Assembly: GCA_944388125.1 (NCBI GenBank)
Contig: CALXHO010000001.1
Span: forward strand, 46,883 to 110,882
Reading direction: 5' to 3'
Length of the DNA stretch: 64,000 bases
DNA from: an uncultured Gemmiger sp.
GTDB taxonomy: Bacteria > Bacillota > Clostridia > Oscillospirales > Ruminococcaceae
In this document: positions 58,434-64,000 of the stretch, one piece after another
Position numbering within the stretch: the first letter of the stretch is position 1
Layout: each line of letters begins with the position of its first letter
Position numbers and translations under genes: made by a program
The notes under the pieces: generated by a model
What the model saw: only the letters and a program-made list of their open reading frames with translations
What the model was told of the DNA's origin: nothing
Database searches by the model: none

Positions 58434-60251
58434 TCAGATCCGGCGCATCCGTTCCTGTTCGAACTGGCGGCGGTAGAGATTCCGGTAATAGCCTTTTTTG
58501 CGGATCAGTTCCTCGTGGGTTCCCTGCTCCACAATGGCGCCGTCCCGCACCACCAGGATCAGGTCGGCACGCCGGATGGTGGACAGGCGGTGGGCAATGA
58601 GGAAGGAGGTGCGTCCTTTGAGCAGCAGCTCGGTGGCATCCTGGATCAGGCGCTCGGTCTTGGTGTCGATGGAGCTGGTGGCCTCGTCCAGAACAAAGAT
58701 GCGGGGGTCGGCCAGCACAGCCCGGGCAAAGGAGATGAGCTGCTTTTCGCCGGTGGAGAGGCGGTCACCGCCCTCTCCCACATCGCTCTGGTAGCCTTTC
58801 TCCAGCTTTTGGGCGATCTGGTCCACCGAGACTGCCTTGGCCGCCGCGATGACTTCCTCATCGGTGGCGTCCAGCCGTCCGTAGCGGATGTTCTCCATCA
58901 CCGTGCCGGAAAACAGATGGGGGCTTTGCAGCACATAGCCGATGCTGCTGTGCAGCCACAGCTGGCTGCGCTCCCGGTAGTCCTTCCCGTCAATGAGGAC
59001 CTGTCCGGAGGTGGGCTCAAAGAAGCGGCAGGCCAGGTTGACCAGCGTACTTTTGCCCGCGCCGGTCTCCCCCACGATGGCAATGGTGGAGCCCGCCGGG
59101 ATTTTCAGATTGAAATGGCTGAGCACGTCCTCATTGCCGTCGGGGTAGCGGAAGGAAACATCCCGGAACTCGATGTCCCCACGGATGGGCTCCCAGTTTT
59201 CCTTTTTGGGGGCAAAGACCGTGCCGTATTTTGCCTCCACCTGTGGGGTATCGGTGATGAGGGGTTTCTCTTCCAGCAGCCCCATCACCCGCTCGATGTT
59301 GGCCTGGAGGGAGAGGATGTCCGCAATGTTTCGGGCAATCTGCTGGATGGGCTCAAAGATGCCCACCGCGTAGGAGGTAAAGGCCGACAGCGTGCCGATA
59401 AGCATCCGGTGTTCCAGGGCCATCGCCCCGCCCCGGGCCAGCACAATGGCGGTAGTCAGAGAGCTGAAAAAGAGGACCAGCGGAATATAGACGGCAGAGA
59501 GCCGGGCCGCCCGCACGGAGGAGACCCGCATATCCTGGGTGACTGCCTCGAATTCCTGGCTGTTCTGTTCCTCGATGACCAGCGTCTTGGAGGTGCGGGC
59601 GCCCATGATGCCCTCGTTGTAGGCGCTGGTGATGCGGGAATTCATCTTGCGCACCCGACGGTTCCAGCGGAGAATCCGGTCCTGGAACCAGGCGGTGAGC
59701 AGGGAGATCACCGGCACAATGAGGATCACTGCCGCGGCCAGCCCCGGGTCCAGCAAAAACATCATGCCGAAGACGCCCAGCACGTAGAAGACCGCCCACA
59801 GCATGTCCACCGAATTCCAGGCAATCATGCCGGCAATGCGGTTGGTGTCGCTCATGATGCGGGAGAGCAGATACCCCACCGGCGTGACATTGTAATAGGA
59901 CAAGGACAGAGTCTGCAGGTGGACAAAGCAGGCCCGCTTCATATCCCGGCCCACCTGCATCTCAATGCGCATGGAGCGACGGGTAAAGAGAATGACCGAC
60001 AGCGCCTGCAGGGCAATGATGACCCCGTAGAAAAGAGCAAAGAAAGGCAGGCCGGAAAGTTCTTCCGTCTGGATGAACTGGTCAATGGCATACCGCTGGA
60101 AGAGCGGCAGAGCAATGTCGATGACGGCGCAGAATACATTGAGCACCAGCACCGCCGCGATGATCCCCCGGTAAGGCCGCAGAAAGGGCAGCAGCTTTTT
60201 CCAGGAGCGGATATCAAAGGATTTTGTGTATTCCTTCTCCTCATAGGCCAT
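58434..60251 (-). CDS. ABC multidrug exporter half-transporter, catalytically canonical Walker B (BmrD-like)
   Basis: 605 residues; the ATG at 60251 follows GGAGGGG. Six-helix membrane domain (about 20-320), then the nucleotide-binding domain: Walker A GETGAGKSTLVN, Q loop YVLQSPHLFSG, signature LSTGEKQLISFARA (non-canonical), Walker B IFVLDEATSSID with the catalytic Glu, and H loop IAHRLST. The pairing of a weak signature here with a Walker B lacking Glu in the partner is typical of heterodimers with one degenerate ATP site. It overlaps the partner stop by 11 bases. Confidence 0.93.
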   Translation of the reverse strand: MAYEEKEYTKSFDIRSWKKLLPFLRPYRGIIAAVLVLNVFCAVIDIALPLFQRYAIDQFIQTEELSGLPFFALFYGVIIALQALSVILFTRRSMRIEMQVGRDMKRACFVHLQTLSLSYYNVTPVGYLLSRIMSDTNRIAGMIAWNSVDMLWAVFYVLGVFGMMFLLDPGLAAAVILIVPVISLLTAWFQDRILRWNRRVRKMNSRITSAYNEGIMGARTSKTLVIEEQNSQEFEAVTQDMRVSSVRAARLSAVYIPLVLFFSSLTTAIVLARGGAMALEHRMLIGTLSAFTSYAVGIFEPIQQIARNIADILSLQANIERVMGLLEEKPLITDTPQVEAKYGTVFAPKKENWEPIRGDIEFRDVSFRYPDGNEDVLSHFNLKIPAGSTIAIVGETGAGKSTLVNLACRFFEPTSGQVLIDGKDYRERSQLWLHSSIGYVLQSPHLFSGTVMENIRYGRLDATDEEVIAAAKAVSVDQIAQKLEKGYQSDVGEGGDRLSTGEKQLISFARAVLADPRIFVLDEATSSIDTKTERLIQDATELLLKGRTSFLIAHRLSTIRRADLILVVRDGAIVEQGTHEELIRKKGYYRNLYRRQFEQERMRRI

Positions 60252-62070
60252 GGGTATCCCCTCCTTCCTGGCCAAAGAGCAGATCCCGGTCCTCCCCGGT
60301 CATCTGCAGGTCGTAAATTTCACGGTAAAGTCCATGGCGGGCCATGAGCTGGTCATGGCTGCCGCACTCGGCCACCCGGCCGTCCTGCAATACCAGAATG
60401 CAGTCGGCCTGCATGAGGGTTGTGATCCGGTGGGAGACCAGAATGACAGTGGCGGAGCCCTTCGCCTGATGGAGGGCGTCCCGGATTTTGGCGTCGGTCT
60501 CGGCATCCACGGCGGAGAGGGAGTCGTCAAAAATCAGGATGGGCGCATCCAGCATCAGGGTCCGGGCGATGGCCACACGCTGTTTCTGGCCGCCCGAGAG
60601 GGTGACGCCCCGCTCGCCGATGATGGTGTCGTAGCCGTCGGCAAATTCCAGGATTGCCTGATCCACCTGGGCCGTCCCCGCATGGAGGCGGACCTCCTCC
60701 AGGGTCGCCTGAGGCCGGGCCGCGGCAATGTTTTCCCGGATGGTGCGGGAGAACAGGAAGGGTTCCTGCAGCACAATGCCGATGTTTTTCCGCAGATAGG
60801 ACCGGCTGATCTTGGCAATATCCACCCCGCCGATGGTGATCTTTCCCTGTTCCGGCGGCAGGTCGTAGAGTCGGTCCAGCAGGTGCATGAGGGTGGACTT
60901 GCCGCTGCCCGTAGCCCCCAGCACGGCAAAGGTCTTGCCGGCGGGGATGGTGAAGCTCACATCCTGGAGCACCGGCTGCTCCCCGTAGGCAAAGGAGACA
61001 TGGTCAAAGACAATATCCTGATCCATGGGCGGGGTCAGGGCGTCGGCGGGTTCTTCCTCGGGGCTGGCATCCAGGATATAGGCCAGACGGTCGATGGAAA
61101 CGCCCGCCTTGCTCATCTCGGAGAGAATCCGCCCCAGGCCACGCACCGGCCAGACCAGGGACTGGTTGTAGGAGACAAAGGCCAGAAACTCGCCCAGGGT
61201 GATCTGCCCGTGCACCGTCTGCACCACGCCCACCGAGATGACGGTGAGAATCTGCAGGCCGGTGATCAGGTCGCCGATGCCCCAGTAGGCGCTGAGCAGC
61301 TTTCCCAGCTGGATCCACAGGGAGGCAAACCGCTGGTTCTTCTTATCGAAGCGGTCCACCTCCCACTTTTCCCGGCCGAAGGCCCGCACCACCCGCACGC
61401 CGGTCAGGTTTTCCTGGACCAGAGTGGAGAGCTCTCCTTCCGCCTCGTCGGCGGTGAGAAAGCGCTTGGCGATGCGGGTATAGAAAAAGAGGGAATACAG
61501 CAGGATGACCGGCAGAAAAGCCACGGCGATCAGGGTCATGCTGACGTTCATGGAGGCCATCACCACCAGGGAGAAGCCCACCAGAAAGACCACCCGGAAG
61601 ACTTCCAGCAACTGGTTGGTCACGAAATTGCGCACCACTTCCACGTCGGAGGTGCAGCGCTGGATGATCTCCCCTGTGCTGTGGCGGACATGCCAGGCAT
61701 AGGGCAGGCGCTGGATGTGCCGGAACAAGGCATCCCGCAGCGCCTTGACGAAATTTTCCGACCCGATGGCGGTTCCCATCCGGCTGCCGTAGGTGCAAAG
61801 CCCGGACAGCACCGCCACCACAAGCAAAAATCCCGCCGCGGCCAGCAGCTGGGTCAGGGGCCCTGCGGCCAGCAGGGCATCGGGCGCAAGGGTCGTCACC
61901 ACCTTGGGCAGGGGTTCGCCGCCCAGAATGGAGTCCACCGCCACACGCACCACCTGCGGGGTCAGCGAGCTCAGCACCGTGTTTCCCATGGAAAACACCA
62001 GGGTGAGCGCAAAGATCCAGAGACAGGGCCGCAAGAATCTCCAGATCAGCGTTTGTTTGGATTGTTTCAA
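60241..62070 (-). CDS. ABC multidrug exporter half-transporter, degenerate Walker B (BmrC-like)
   Basis: 609 residues from a TTG start behind AAGGAGG. Six-helix membrane domain (about 15-310), then the nucleotide-binding domain: Walker A GATGSGKSTLMH, Q loop IVLQEPFLFS, canonical signature LSGGQKQRVAIAR, Walker B ILIFDDSLSAVD with Asp in place of the catalytic Glu, and H loop VSHRITT. This matches the BmrC/YheI half of heterodimeric exporters. It is the first structural gene after a leader ORF and terminator, suggesting attenuation control. Confidence 0.93.
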   Translation of the reverse strand: MKQSKQTLIWRFLRPCLWIFALTLVFSMGNTVLSSLTPQVVRVAVDSILGGEPLPKVVTTLAPDALLAAGPLTQLLAAAGFLLVVAVLSGLCTYGSRMGTAIGSENFVKALRDALFRHIQRLPYAWHVRHSTGEIIQRCTSDVEVVRNFVTNQLLEVFRVVFLVGFSLVVMASMNVSMTLIAVAFLPVILLYSLFFYTRIAKRFLTADEAEGELSTLVQENLTGVRVVRAFGREKWEVDRFDKKNQRFASLWIQLGKLLSAYWGIGDLITGLQILTVISVGVVQTVHGQITLGEFLAFVSYNQSLVWPVRGLGRILSEMSKAGVSIDRLAYILDASPEEEPADALTPPMDQDIVFDHVSFAYGEQPVLQDVSFTIPAGKTFAVLGATGSGKSTLMHLLDRLYDLPPEQGKITIGGVDIAKISRSYLRKNIGIVLQEPFLFSRTIRENIAAARPQATLEEVRLHAGTAQVDQAILEFADGYDTIIGERGVTLSGGQKQRVAIARTLMLDAPILIFDDSLSAVDAETDAKIRDALHQAKGSATVILVSHRITTLMQADCILVLQDGRVAECGSHDQLMARHGLYREIYDLQMTGEDRDLLFGQEGGDTHGL

Positions 62071-62092
62071 AAGATTTCCTCCTTTTGGGGCA

Positions 62093-62124
62093 CAAAAAAG
62101 CCCCCGGCTTTTCCAGCCGGGGGC
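62093..62124 (-). terminator. Attenuator-type terminator upstream of the ABC operon
   Basis: A 9-bp GC stem (GCCCCCGGC with GCCGGGGGC, loop 62109-62115) is followed on the minus strand by TTTTTT (62094-62099). It sits between the leader ORF stop and the ribosome site of the first transporter gene, so it must be read through for exporter expression. Confidence 0.88.
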
Positions 62125-62150
62125 GCTTTCCGCATCAAAACAAAACCCAC

Positions 62151-62237
62151 CTATTTCCCAGGGCAGGGCAAGAAGGCGGACAGAGTTTTCCCTCGGCCAG
62201 TAACGATCATACGACGGTTGTAAATCAAGTTCATCAT
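62151..62237 (-). CDS. Leader peptide of the ABC exporter operon (28 residues)
   Basis: A strong site (AAAGGAGG, 62246-62253) precedes tandem ATG codons at 62237 and 62234. The product starts MMNLIYNRRMIVTGRG and ends PCPGK before TAG at 62151-62153. It lies about 35 bases after a near-consensus -10 and 27 bases before the terminator hairpin. A segment within codons 14-16 (GGCCGAGGG) could pair imperfectly with the terminator's 5' arm. The layout matches leader peptides such as BmrB of Bacillus subtilis, where ribosome stalling by antibiotics allows read-through. The peptide sequence itself is not one I recognise. Confidence 0.75.
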   Translation of the reverse strand: MMNLIYNRRMIVTGRGKTLSAFLPCPGK

Positions 62238-62273
62238 TCTGTTCGCCTCCTTTCTTGTAATTCAGTATGTCCC

Positions 62274-62302
62274 ACTATACCCTACCTGGACTGACTTGTC
62301 AA
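62274..62302 (-). promoter_or_regulatory. Promoter of the leader peptide/ABC exporter operon
   Basis: Minus strand TTGACA (62297-62302), 17-base spacer, TATAGT (62274-62279). Confidence 0.88.
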
Positions 62303-62411
62303 GAAAATTTCAAATGACCTGCTGAATTGTATGATGCTTCAAAGAAGCAATCTTGTCTTGAATAGGGTTTCCCCGCAGGCCCGGAAATCTTTTTGTCCAT
62401 ACGTTCCAAAA

Positions 62412-62447
62412 GGAATCGCCGGCTGAGAAATCTCAGCCGGCGATTCC
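62412..62447. terminator. Long perfect hairpin, terminator
   Basis: 17-bp perfect arms (62412-62428 and 62431-62447) of sequence GGAATCGCCGGCTGAGA and its complement, with T-rich flanks on both sides. It lies downstream of the leftward aminotransferase remnant. Confidence 0.75.
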
Positions 62448-62539
62448 TTTCGGTGTTTTCCCGGGCAGAAAATGTCTTGCGCGGCATCTTCTCCTGCAAG
62501 TCTGGAAGTCAGTCCCTTACCGGGATTTTCTGCATCGAA

Positions 62540-63262
62540 TTACTGTTTTTCTGCACTGGCAGAACCGGCCCTGTTTTTCGGATGCCGTTCGAGGGCTTCC
62601 TTGATGAGTTCCACCGCATGGATGCACTCTTCCCTGTCCTGCAGCGTTCCGAAAATGATGCGGATATGGGTCGGGTCACAGTATGCGGCGCCGGTGCTGA
62701 CCAGAACATTGGCCTCCTGCACCAGATAGCGAATCACTTCTTCATCCGTCCCGTAGAAAGAGGTATCCACCCAAAAGAAAAAGCCTGCTTCAGGTTTTAC
62801 ATAAGAAATATGCGGGATGGTGTCCAGGATTTTCCCCAGAATCCGGGCACGTGCCATCCACTCCTGGCGCATATCCTCCATAAACCTGGTGTCCCGCAGG
62901 CCGGCGGTAATGCCCGCCTGGGCCATGGTATTTGTGGCTCCGATCACAAACACCGCCGTCTGGTGAAGCACATCGGTGATCTCTTTGGAGGCCACAATAT
63001 ACGCAACCCGGAAACCGCACAGCCCCATTCCTTTGGAAATGGAACCGATGGTAATTGTGCGCTCAAACATCCCGGGCAGAGACATCATGCTGACATACTC
63101 ATTTCCGTCATACACGCTGTCCTCAAAGCACTGGTCCACAATGCAGATCAGGTTGTGCCGGATACAGAAATCCGCCAGCTTCTCCATCGTTGCCCTCTTG
63201 TAAACCGTACCCGTGGGATTGTTCGGGTTGGTGAACATAAAAATCCTTGTCTTGGGAGATGT
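62540..63262 (-). pseudogene. Class I/II PLP-dependent aminotransferase, 5'-truncated
   Basis: The frame from about 63262 reads EHTSPKTRIFMFTNPNNPTGTV, then VDQCFED, SISKGMGLCGFRVAY (PLP Schiff-base Lys) and continues to a normal C-terminus. The first roughly 150 residues of the fold, including the part that binds the PLP phosphate and stacks on its ring, are missing. An ATG at 63238 could start a 232-residue fragment but has no ribosome site and would be inactive. The break coincides with the edge of the hairpin at 63263, so an element insertion followed by deletion is likely. Substrate unknown. Confidence 0.7.
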
Positions 63263-63375
63263 ATGCTCTAAGTGACTTCTTAATCATGGTTTTTTGTCAT
63301 GGTTAGTGAAGCAGTCACTTAGAGCATTTTCATTTCAGGAGGTACAGCCATGAGAAACGAGAAAATCACCCCTCT
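63263..63375 (+). mobile_element. Mobile-element scar: hairpin plus first codons of a recombinase-like gene
   Basis: Perfect 15-bp arms ATGCTCTAAGTGACT (63263-63277) and AGTCACTTAGAGCAT (63313-63327) are followed by a very strong ribosome site (CAGGAGGT) and ATG at 63350. The first residues, MRNEKITPL, resemble from memory the N-termini of large serine recombinases of Clostridia integrative elements, which normally continue into a YxRLSxDD motif. Here the reading changes at about 63375 into antisense of the next gene. The stretch looks like one end of an element whose remainder was deleted. The element's identity is not certain. Confidence 0.5.
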
Positions 63376-64000
63376 GGATACCCAGCAGCAGCGAATGAAA
63401 GTCCCAGTAAATGGTGGGCTTATCCAGCAGCTCGATATGGTAGCTGGGGGCGATCCCGCCAAATGCGGCCATGGCTTTGCGATACAGACCCCGTGCGTCC
63501 TCGTCGATGGAATCATAATCATTGTAGTACAAAATGGCGGTACTTAGCGTAAAGGCCCAGTCCTTGAACTGCTGGGCAACCCAGTCGTAGGGTTCCGCAT
63601 ATTCCCGCTGGAAACTCATGTTTTTCGCCATCGGTTCGTCCATGAAGGTCATGGTCAGGGCAATCATCGTCCGGTCACCAGACACATTCCACGTGGATGC
63701 TATGCCTTTCTTCACCAAGTCCAGCTGGTCAAAAGGATAAAACAGGGACAGATATTTGTCCGTCGCCATGGATTCTTCCTTGATGAAATGGTTTTTCGGC
63801 AAGTACACCGCCTCATAGTCCATAAAAGACGGTGTGGTAGGCAGAGCGGTCATCAGCCCCAGCAGGCCGTACCGGGTGATAAACTCCATTACCGCCTTTT
63901 CCACTTCTGCTTCCGGCTTGCGCCCCATCATCAGCATCCCCACATTCAGCGCATCCAGCACAATGTTGGGGACCTCTTTCAGCGGATTGTAGACATCCGG
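63376..64000 (-). pseudogene. Uncharacterised Clostridia protein (possibly DUF6076), 3'-truncated and running off the window
   Basis: The leftward frame is open from the window edge (YNPLKEVPNIVLDALNVG) to TIYWDFHSLLLGIQ at about 63378, then reads into the scar and stops at 63335. From memory, related proteins are longer and end in a Cys-rich segment (CKHCG-like), which is missing here. No membrane helix or enzyme motif is seen. The abrupt end at the scar implies truncation. Confidence 0.6.

Follow-up and report, generated by a model that had tools for sequence, protein, structure and literature searches.

The leader of an ABC exporter operon in an uncultured Gemmiger sp. is probably a three-state transcription attenuator in which a ribosome on a short leader open reading frame (ORF) acts as the sensor. 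The operon lies on the minus strand of the window, by which we mean the whole stretch of 64,000 nucleotides that was analyzed. The evidence for this reading consists of the anatomy of the leader and its conservation, covariation of both the helix between its Shine–Dalgarno sequence (SD) and an anti-SD and its terminator, and a match between a further segment and its own terminator that exceeds chance over groups of leaders.

The leader starts at a promoter composed of TTGACA (62302–62297), a 17-nt spacer, and TATAGT (62279–62274), which together (62274–62302, minus strand) match the consensus at 11 of 12 positions; in the interval 61500–62700 one promoter of this quality was seen against 0.4 (sd 0.5) expected. 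Downstream is an ORF of 28 codons and a TAG stop (MMNLIYNRRMIVTGRGKTLSAFLPCPGK; 62151–62237, minus strand) that begins with tandem ATG codons and is preceded by a strong SD (AAAGGAGG). After a gap of 26 nt follows an intrinsic terminator (62094–62124, minus strand) composed of a stem–loop at 62124–62100 with 10 pairs, nine of them GC, and a loop of 5 (5′ arm, 62124–62115), and T6 at 62099–62094. An SD-led leader ORF between promoter and terminator, and an intrinsic terminator before the structural gene, are defining features of a ribosome-mediated attenuator of the bmrB/vmlR kind. Such attenuators also have an antiterminator that excludes the terminator and an anti-antiterminator that blocks it, and both are present here as predicted structures backed by comparison. 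The SD and its spacer (arm A, AAGGAGGCGAACAGA; 62238–62252, minus strand) would form the 5′ strand of the anti-antiterminator, as its duplex with arm C and covariation suggest; arm B (GGCCGAGGG; 62190–62198, minus strand) would form the 5′ strand of the antiterminator by pairing with the 5′ arm of the terminator; and arm C, an anti-SD late in the leader ORF (TCTGTCCGCCTTCTT, with the core CUGUCCGC; 62170–62184, minus strand), is the candidate 3′ strand of the anti-antiterminator, based on its duplex and on folding. The sequence AGGTGGG at the leader stop (62146–62152, minus strand) is predicted from the window fold to pair with arm C when the leader is in its read-through fold and occupies the place of a stop-codon hairpin of the relatives, which is weak in the window. 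The leader folds with a z score of −2.86 relative to shuffled sequences, 2 of 200 of which folded equally well; the minimum free energy fold contains the terminator, and the centroid contains the terminator and the SD:anti-SD helix.

Half 1 of the exporter (60241–62070, minus strand; 609 aa; Pfam ABC_membrane and ABC_tran) has a canonical LSGGQ signature and FDD at the place of the catalytic DE, and half 2 (58434–60275, minus strand; 613 aa; assigned by Pfam and motifs) has a degenerate LSTGEKQ signature and a canonical LDEA. An earlier note, made from the sequence, had claimed a near-consensus promoter, the 28-codon ORF with its strong SD and tandem ATG, a GC-rich terminator with T6 ahead of the exporter pair, and a degenerate/canonical site split between the two halves, all of which were confirmed. 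One degenerate and one canonical ATP site is the arrangement of heterodimeric ABC exporters of the BmrCD, TM287/288, and TmrAB kind. Close orthology of the halves to BmrC and BmrD is not supported, as TmrAB, TM287/288 (for half 2), and P-glycoproteins outscore BmrC/BmrD (YheI/YheH) among solved exporters. We do not count a MarR gene (58242–57784) as part of the operon given that its own promoter-like and terminator-like sequences precede it (by eye) and that it had no match in the DNA around 15 loci (L013–L027), compared mostly to about 1.2 kb past half 2 and with less reach or none in L014, L019, L023, L026, and L027. Between the operon promoter and an aminotransferase gene lies a hairpin of 19 pairs with a 4-base loop (62409–62450), and an inverted repeat with 19-nt arms that are 95% complementary (63263–63327) separates an ORF identified by Pfam as an aminotransferase fragment (62540–63238) from an ORF with no Pfam match (63335–64000); these two ORFs may derive from a single interrupted gene.

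A protein scan of genome contigs returned 39 loci encoding relatives of half 1, and those other than L028–L051 were examined. In the 11 close orthologs (L013–L023; 80–87% identity; labeled Gemmiger, Fournierella, Ruthenibacterium, and others), a promoter, an SD-led ORF, and a terminator precede half 1 without exception, with a TTGACA and a TATA-type −10 whose position is unchanged in every case; half 2 follows in 10 of these loci, and the eleventh (L023) ends within half 1. The same kind of leader is present in all three genus-mates with a half-1 ortholog of 60–61% identity, and in L228, from a different family of the class, the element lies ahead of a half-1 homolog of 58% identity. The earlier note had proposed conservation of the leader ORF and terminator before homologous operons as a check, and these comparisons bear it out. 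Half 1 itself is patchy in the genus, where 4 of 35 genomes, the window's included, match it at E ≤ 1e-100, and the window copy is nearer to those of other genera than to those of its genus-mates, a pattern that suggests horizontal transfer. In the window's family, 66 of 396 genomes encode a half-1 homolog at E ≤ 1e-150. RNA models were built from 11 (R1) and 21 (R2) sequences. Applied to 69 half-1 loci, R2 scores at least 52 bits in 13, all of which are training sequences, contigs that by their length are those of training sequences, or a near copy (L152), and 22–32 bits in four, of which L166, L167, and L177 show an SD, an ORF, and a terminator by eye; a match above 20 bits is absent from 52 of the 69, so many half-1 homologs have other upstream regions. 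Six other half-1 homologs (L191, L194, L196, L197, L201, and L203) share an upstream GCCGTTACC stretch in place of the leader, and these upstream regions have no Rfam match in L191, L194, L196, L201, and L203.

Sequence comparison indicates that the best supported pairing is that of the leader SD with the anti-SD (A:C), which is absent from the earlier note. The window duplex (62252–62238 with 62184–62170) contains one A–C mismatch and is predicted at −21.6 kcal/mol (p = 0.004 and 0.002 in two dinucleotide-shuffle tests). RNAalifold, given 11 sequences and unprompted, returned A:C, the stop-codon hairpin, and the terminator, with two-sided changes in 8 of 29 pairs; both this hairpin and the terminator stem show compensatory changes among relatives. 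The close clade and the genus-mates differ on both sides of A:C (GCGGACAG/CTGTCCGC vs. GCGCGCAC/GTGCGCGC), and the mean duplex energies are −16.8 and −17.7 kcal/mol within clades and −10.6 and −11.1 kcal/mol across them, i.e., about 6 weaker. Given that a MAFFT alignment of both clades shifted the distant clade's arm C by two columns, pairs were counted in a model-fitted alignment of 21 sequences; although the fit leans towards structure, two-sided changes occur in 19 of its 27 pairs (4 of 8 in A:C) and in only 5–6 when the partners are offset by one, two, or three columns. Over 32 leaders, a set without the late finds L162, L166, L167, and L177, A:C reaches p ≤ 0.05 in 25, and Fisher's combination over nine group representatives gives p = 5e-12, a statistic that is partly circular for groups found with RNA models, in which A:C is present partly by construction. 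The representatives found without RNA models (window, L142, and L024) have A:C p values of 0.002, 0.017, and 0.012, respectively. L020, a near copy of L019, was excluded from alignment A1 and from every leader count.

The antiterminator proposed in the earlier note, GGCCGAGGG with the 5′ arm of the terminator, is supported across clades and weak in many single sequences. In the window this duplex is predicted at −14.4 kcal/mol (p = 0.010 and 0.040 in the two shuffle tests), and over the 32 leaders B:terminator has p ≤ 0.05 in 9 and p > 0.05 in 23 (e.g., 0.96 in L227 and 0.78 in L091). This weakness, and the greater support for A:C, would agree with an alternative in which SD:anti-SD pairing merely limits translation of the leader or re-initiation on it, the terminator is of fixed strength, and the exporter level is set by the promoter or by the level of read-through. 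We regard this alternative as unlikely in view of three results. First, the fit of B to its own terminator exceeds that of shuffles over the nine representatives (Fisher p = 9e-5), and none of the RNA models included B as a pairing. Second, an unconfined search of 16 half-1 leaders sets B at codons 13–15, just 5′ of arm C, in 14 (the exceptions are L013 and L024). Third, folding of the window contrasts early with late ribosome stalls more strongly than in all of 200 shuffles (see below). A search confined to 29 nt likewise ends B at most 7 bases from arm C in 29 of the 32 leaders; other clades have an equivalent segment 5′ of arm C that is complementary to their own terminators, and examples of B are GGCCG-AGGG in the window, GCAAGGGGC in L142, and TCAGAGG in L228. 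B of the close clade pairs with a mean of −11.5 kcal/mol on its own terminators and −6.8 on those of the genus-mates, whereas B of the genus-mates has a mean of −14.8 on its own and still −14.1 on those of the close clade, so that the effect of the swap is one-sided. In a ranking over the nine groups, the own B comes first on its own terminator in five and 5th, 2nd, 3rd, and 8th of nine in the other four.

The folds of the attenuator were predicted at successive RNA lengths and with a ribosome placed along the leader ORF. In all 32 leaders P(A:C) is 0.65–1.0 once arm C is transcribed. When the RNA ends at the terminator 5′ arm, P(A:C) is below 0.4 in 19 leaders and at least 0.58 in the other 13; at full length, it regains values above 0.5 in 14 of those 19, with a terminator probability of 0.67–1.0 in the 32 leaders. 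For the window, P(A:C) is 0.69 once C is made, declines to 0.45 ahead of the terminator and to 0.0 when the RNA ends at the 5′ arm, and recovers to 0.53 for the full-length leader, where the terminator probability is 1.00. Since A:C falls at the 5′ arm and returns at full length, the folds are predicted to compete in the manner of a classical attenuator. At equilibrium, naked window RNA that ends at the 5′ arm has a probability of 0.94 for the antiterminator and 0.0 for A:C, so an OFF state would require earlier formation of A:C, on which the case with no ribosome relies, or the prior passage of a ribosome. In the stall scan of the window, a ribosome at codons 1–9 leaves the terminator 5′ arm sequestered by upstream RNA with a probability of 0.94–0.95, which drops to 0.14–0.15 with the ribosome at codons 12–15. 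The contrast between early and late stalls (codons 2–8 vs. 12–14) is matched by none of the 200 shuffles in the window and has p ≤ 0.02 in 11 of 15 leaders and p > 0.1 in four (L013, L023, L149, and L144). With the ribosome at codons 16–21 the 5′ arm is predicted to be sequestered again through other pairings (0.73–0.86 in the window and, likewise, 0.5–0.7 in several relatives), a modeled behavior that is contrary to the simple scheme.

Based on these predictions, we hypothesize that the SD (A) of the nascent leader pairs with the anti-SD (C) near the end of the ORF, that the A:C helix traps B in the adjoining loop, and that the terminator would then form (OFF). A ribosome held at the start codon or on the first nine or so codons would cover A and leave B and C free; B could then pair with the terminator 5′ arm and C with the RNA around the leader stop, and in this antiterminator fold the polymerase would continue into the exporter pair (ON). 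A ribosome that reaches the stop would free A behind it, so that A:C would re-form (OFF). The likely signal would be a drug or a stress that holds ribosomes at initiation or in early elongation. Translation of the leader ORF, the timing of these steps, re-formation of A:C behind the ribosome, the compounds that act, and induction by drugs are the parts of this scheme that we infer. Codon 2 is a threonine codon in 15 of the 32 leaders, and this may be relevant to drugs that stall ribosomes after certain residues.

The element (SD, ORF, anti-SD, and terminator) also occurs before genes other than half 1, as identified with R1, R2, and, for L207, a DNA pattern. In five genomes it directly precedes the gene for the RNA ligase RtcB (L091, L214, L217, L219, and L220; L091, L214, and L217 match Pfam RtcB, and L219 and L220 are 81–84% identical to L217); in L091 it lies at 1501–1658. 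The leader peptides before RtcB, such as MTIAYIITKEHCSKRLCICEVYPPAISF, resemble one another. It precedes the ribosome-rescue GTPase HflX in two genomes (L218, 1501–1660, and L221, 1501–1655; NCBIfam GTP_HflX), GNAT acetyltransferases in three (L216, L229, and L227), and two further types of ABC exporter (L092/L207/L215 and L094/L211, with L211 and L215 assigned by likeness only). The HflX and GNAT leaders were absent from the training sets of the RNA models. In L216 and L229 the pairing takes in the leader start codon (GGACAAAATG with CATTTTGTCC). Leader ORFs range from 16 to 59 codons across elements and from 23 to 59 before exporter half 1. At E ≤ 1e-6, R2 matched 38 of 396 family genomes, some matches being false, and at E ≤ 1e-7 it matched 5 of 291 class genomes, including the window's; of these, L230 is false by eye and another is the L228 locus described above. 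Among 13 further R2 matches that were inspected (L214–L226), the eight scoring at least 36 bits are leaders by eye, L223–L226 (32–33 bits) were rejected as terminators or coding DNA, and L222 (33.8 bits) is borderline. A DNA pattern of SD and anti-SD occurs in 74 of 396 genomes, apart from known leaders mostly in coding DNA by eye; of four such places inspected more closely, L207 is a real leader, and L208–L210 were rejected.

The RNA, rather than the peptide, is what is kept in these leaders. The peptides of close relatives have a common C-terminal stretch, SR(R/W)xxLSAxxxCPV-like, that is encoded by the RNA of arms B and C. In L014 the conserved RNA is read in another frame and the ORF continues uninterrupted to a stop at a similar position, a frame change that argues for constraint on the RNA, which would be the simpler reading of the C-terminal likeness. 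The leader peptide matched nothing in Pfam or NCBIfam at E up to 10, and tblastn in 35 genus genomes found its own copy and 11 matches at E 0.10–0.87 that we took as chance. Conservation of the leader therefore holds for the RNA and for the presence of an ORF, and not for the peptide itself. An amino-acid attenuator of the trp or his type, in which regulatory codons of the leader peptide sense charged tRNA, would share the leader ORF, terminator, and antiterminator, and several leaders have arginine codons; it is very improbable, however, given that by eye there is no run of a single residue and no residue kept at codons 2–9 across clades, and that the downstream genes encode exporters, RtcB, HflX, and acetyltransferases rather than biosynthetic enzymes. 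Rfam has no match in the window, permissive matches over the leader being far below the gathering threshold, and no family at threshold in 20 further loci; eight more loci gave a single match, to a TPP riboswitch at another place in L215. A ligand-binding riboswitch that overlaps an ORF by accident is the least probable reading despite a structured, conserved leader with a terminator, given the lack of an Rfam match, a conserved pairing that uses the SD of an ORF found in 32 of 32 leaders, and, between the arms, a variable ORF segment and no aptamer-like conserved core.

Taken with the attenuator reading, the spread of the element makes it reasonably probable that an SD serving as an anti-antiterminator arm defines a portable class of Clostridia RNAs upstream of six or more kinds of gene (ABC exporters of three types, RtcB, HflX, and GNAT), a translation-stress set ruled by the ribosome alone. 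The common element would point to one stress, stalled or damaged ribosomes. If this is true, RtcB in element-bearing genomes would be controlled by ribosome stalling, and its role in these bacteria becomes directly testable. In Escherichia coli, RtcB is linked to ribosome-targeting antibiotics through RtcR in the excerpted accounts of PMC12606134 and PMC5175333. Within open-licence literature, we found no paper on RtcB with transcription attenuation, and a looser search gave none naming RtcB among the matches listed. The design would be simple, with the occupancy of one SD deciding transcription, and it would add a group of gut anaerobes to the bacteria with ribosome-sensing attenuation, a mechanism known in detail from Bacillus.

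By analogy, the attenuator would work like the bmrB and vmlR leaders of Bacillus subtilis while failing particulars of both. Pairing between a leader SD and RNA farther along the same leader is described for E. coli trpL. The bmrB leader of bmrCD also combines a leader ORF, a predicted terminator, an antiterminator, and an anti-antiterminator before a heterodimeric ABC exporter pair, and its drug response, in the excerpted account of PMC4191407, requires bmrB translation for induction of bmrCD by ribosome-targeting drugs. In that account, however, the bmrB terminator is inside the ORF, whereas the window terminator starts at 62124, 26 nt after the ORF end at 62151, and the role of the bmrB anti-antiterminator is left open (PMC4191407). 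The earlier description of the window leader as BmrB-like stands for the layout and the antiterminator, and not for the terminator, which is outside the ORF, or for the SD:anti-SD anti-antiterminator, which it missed. The vmlR leader likewise has an anti-antiterminator hairpin, which holds its uORF, a pause hairpin, and a terminator, and early stalling of a ribosome on its uORF prevents the anti-antiterminator, as stated in the available sections of PMC9226507. There, the uORF is a tripeptide whose SD is single-stranded before the hairpin, in contrast to the window, in which the SD is itself a predicted anti-antiterminator strand and the ORF has 28 codons (PMC9226507). The same sections report virtually no expression of vmlR when the SD or start codon of the uORF is mutated (PMC9226507), and by analogy with bmrB and vmlR we predict that expression of the exporter would depend on leader translation. 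A search of open-licence literature combining uORF, Shine–Dalgarno, and anti-antiterminator returned the vmlR paper only (PMC9226507). Compared by its description in part of PMC8632094, the uORFC-6-1 motif before hflX, mainly of Bacillales, is likewise a structured uORF candidate before a ribosome-rescue gene; its structure is entirely downstream of the start codon, whereas in the leaders described here the upstream SD is inside the structure.
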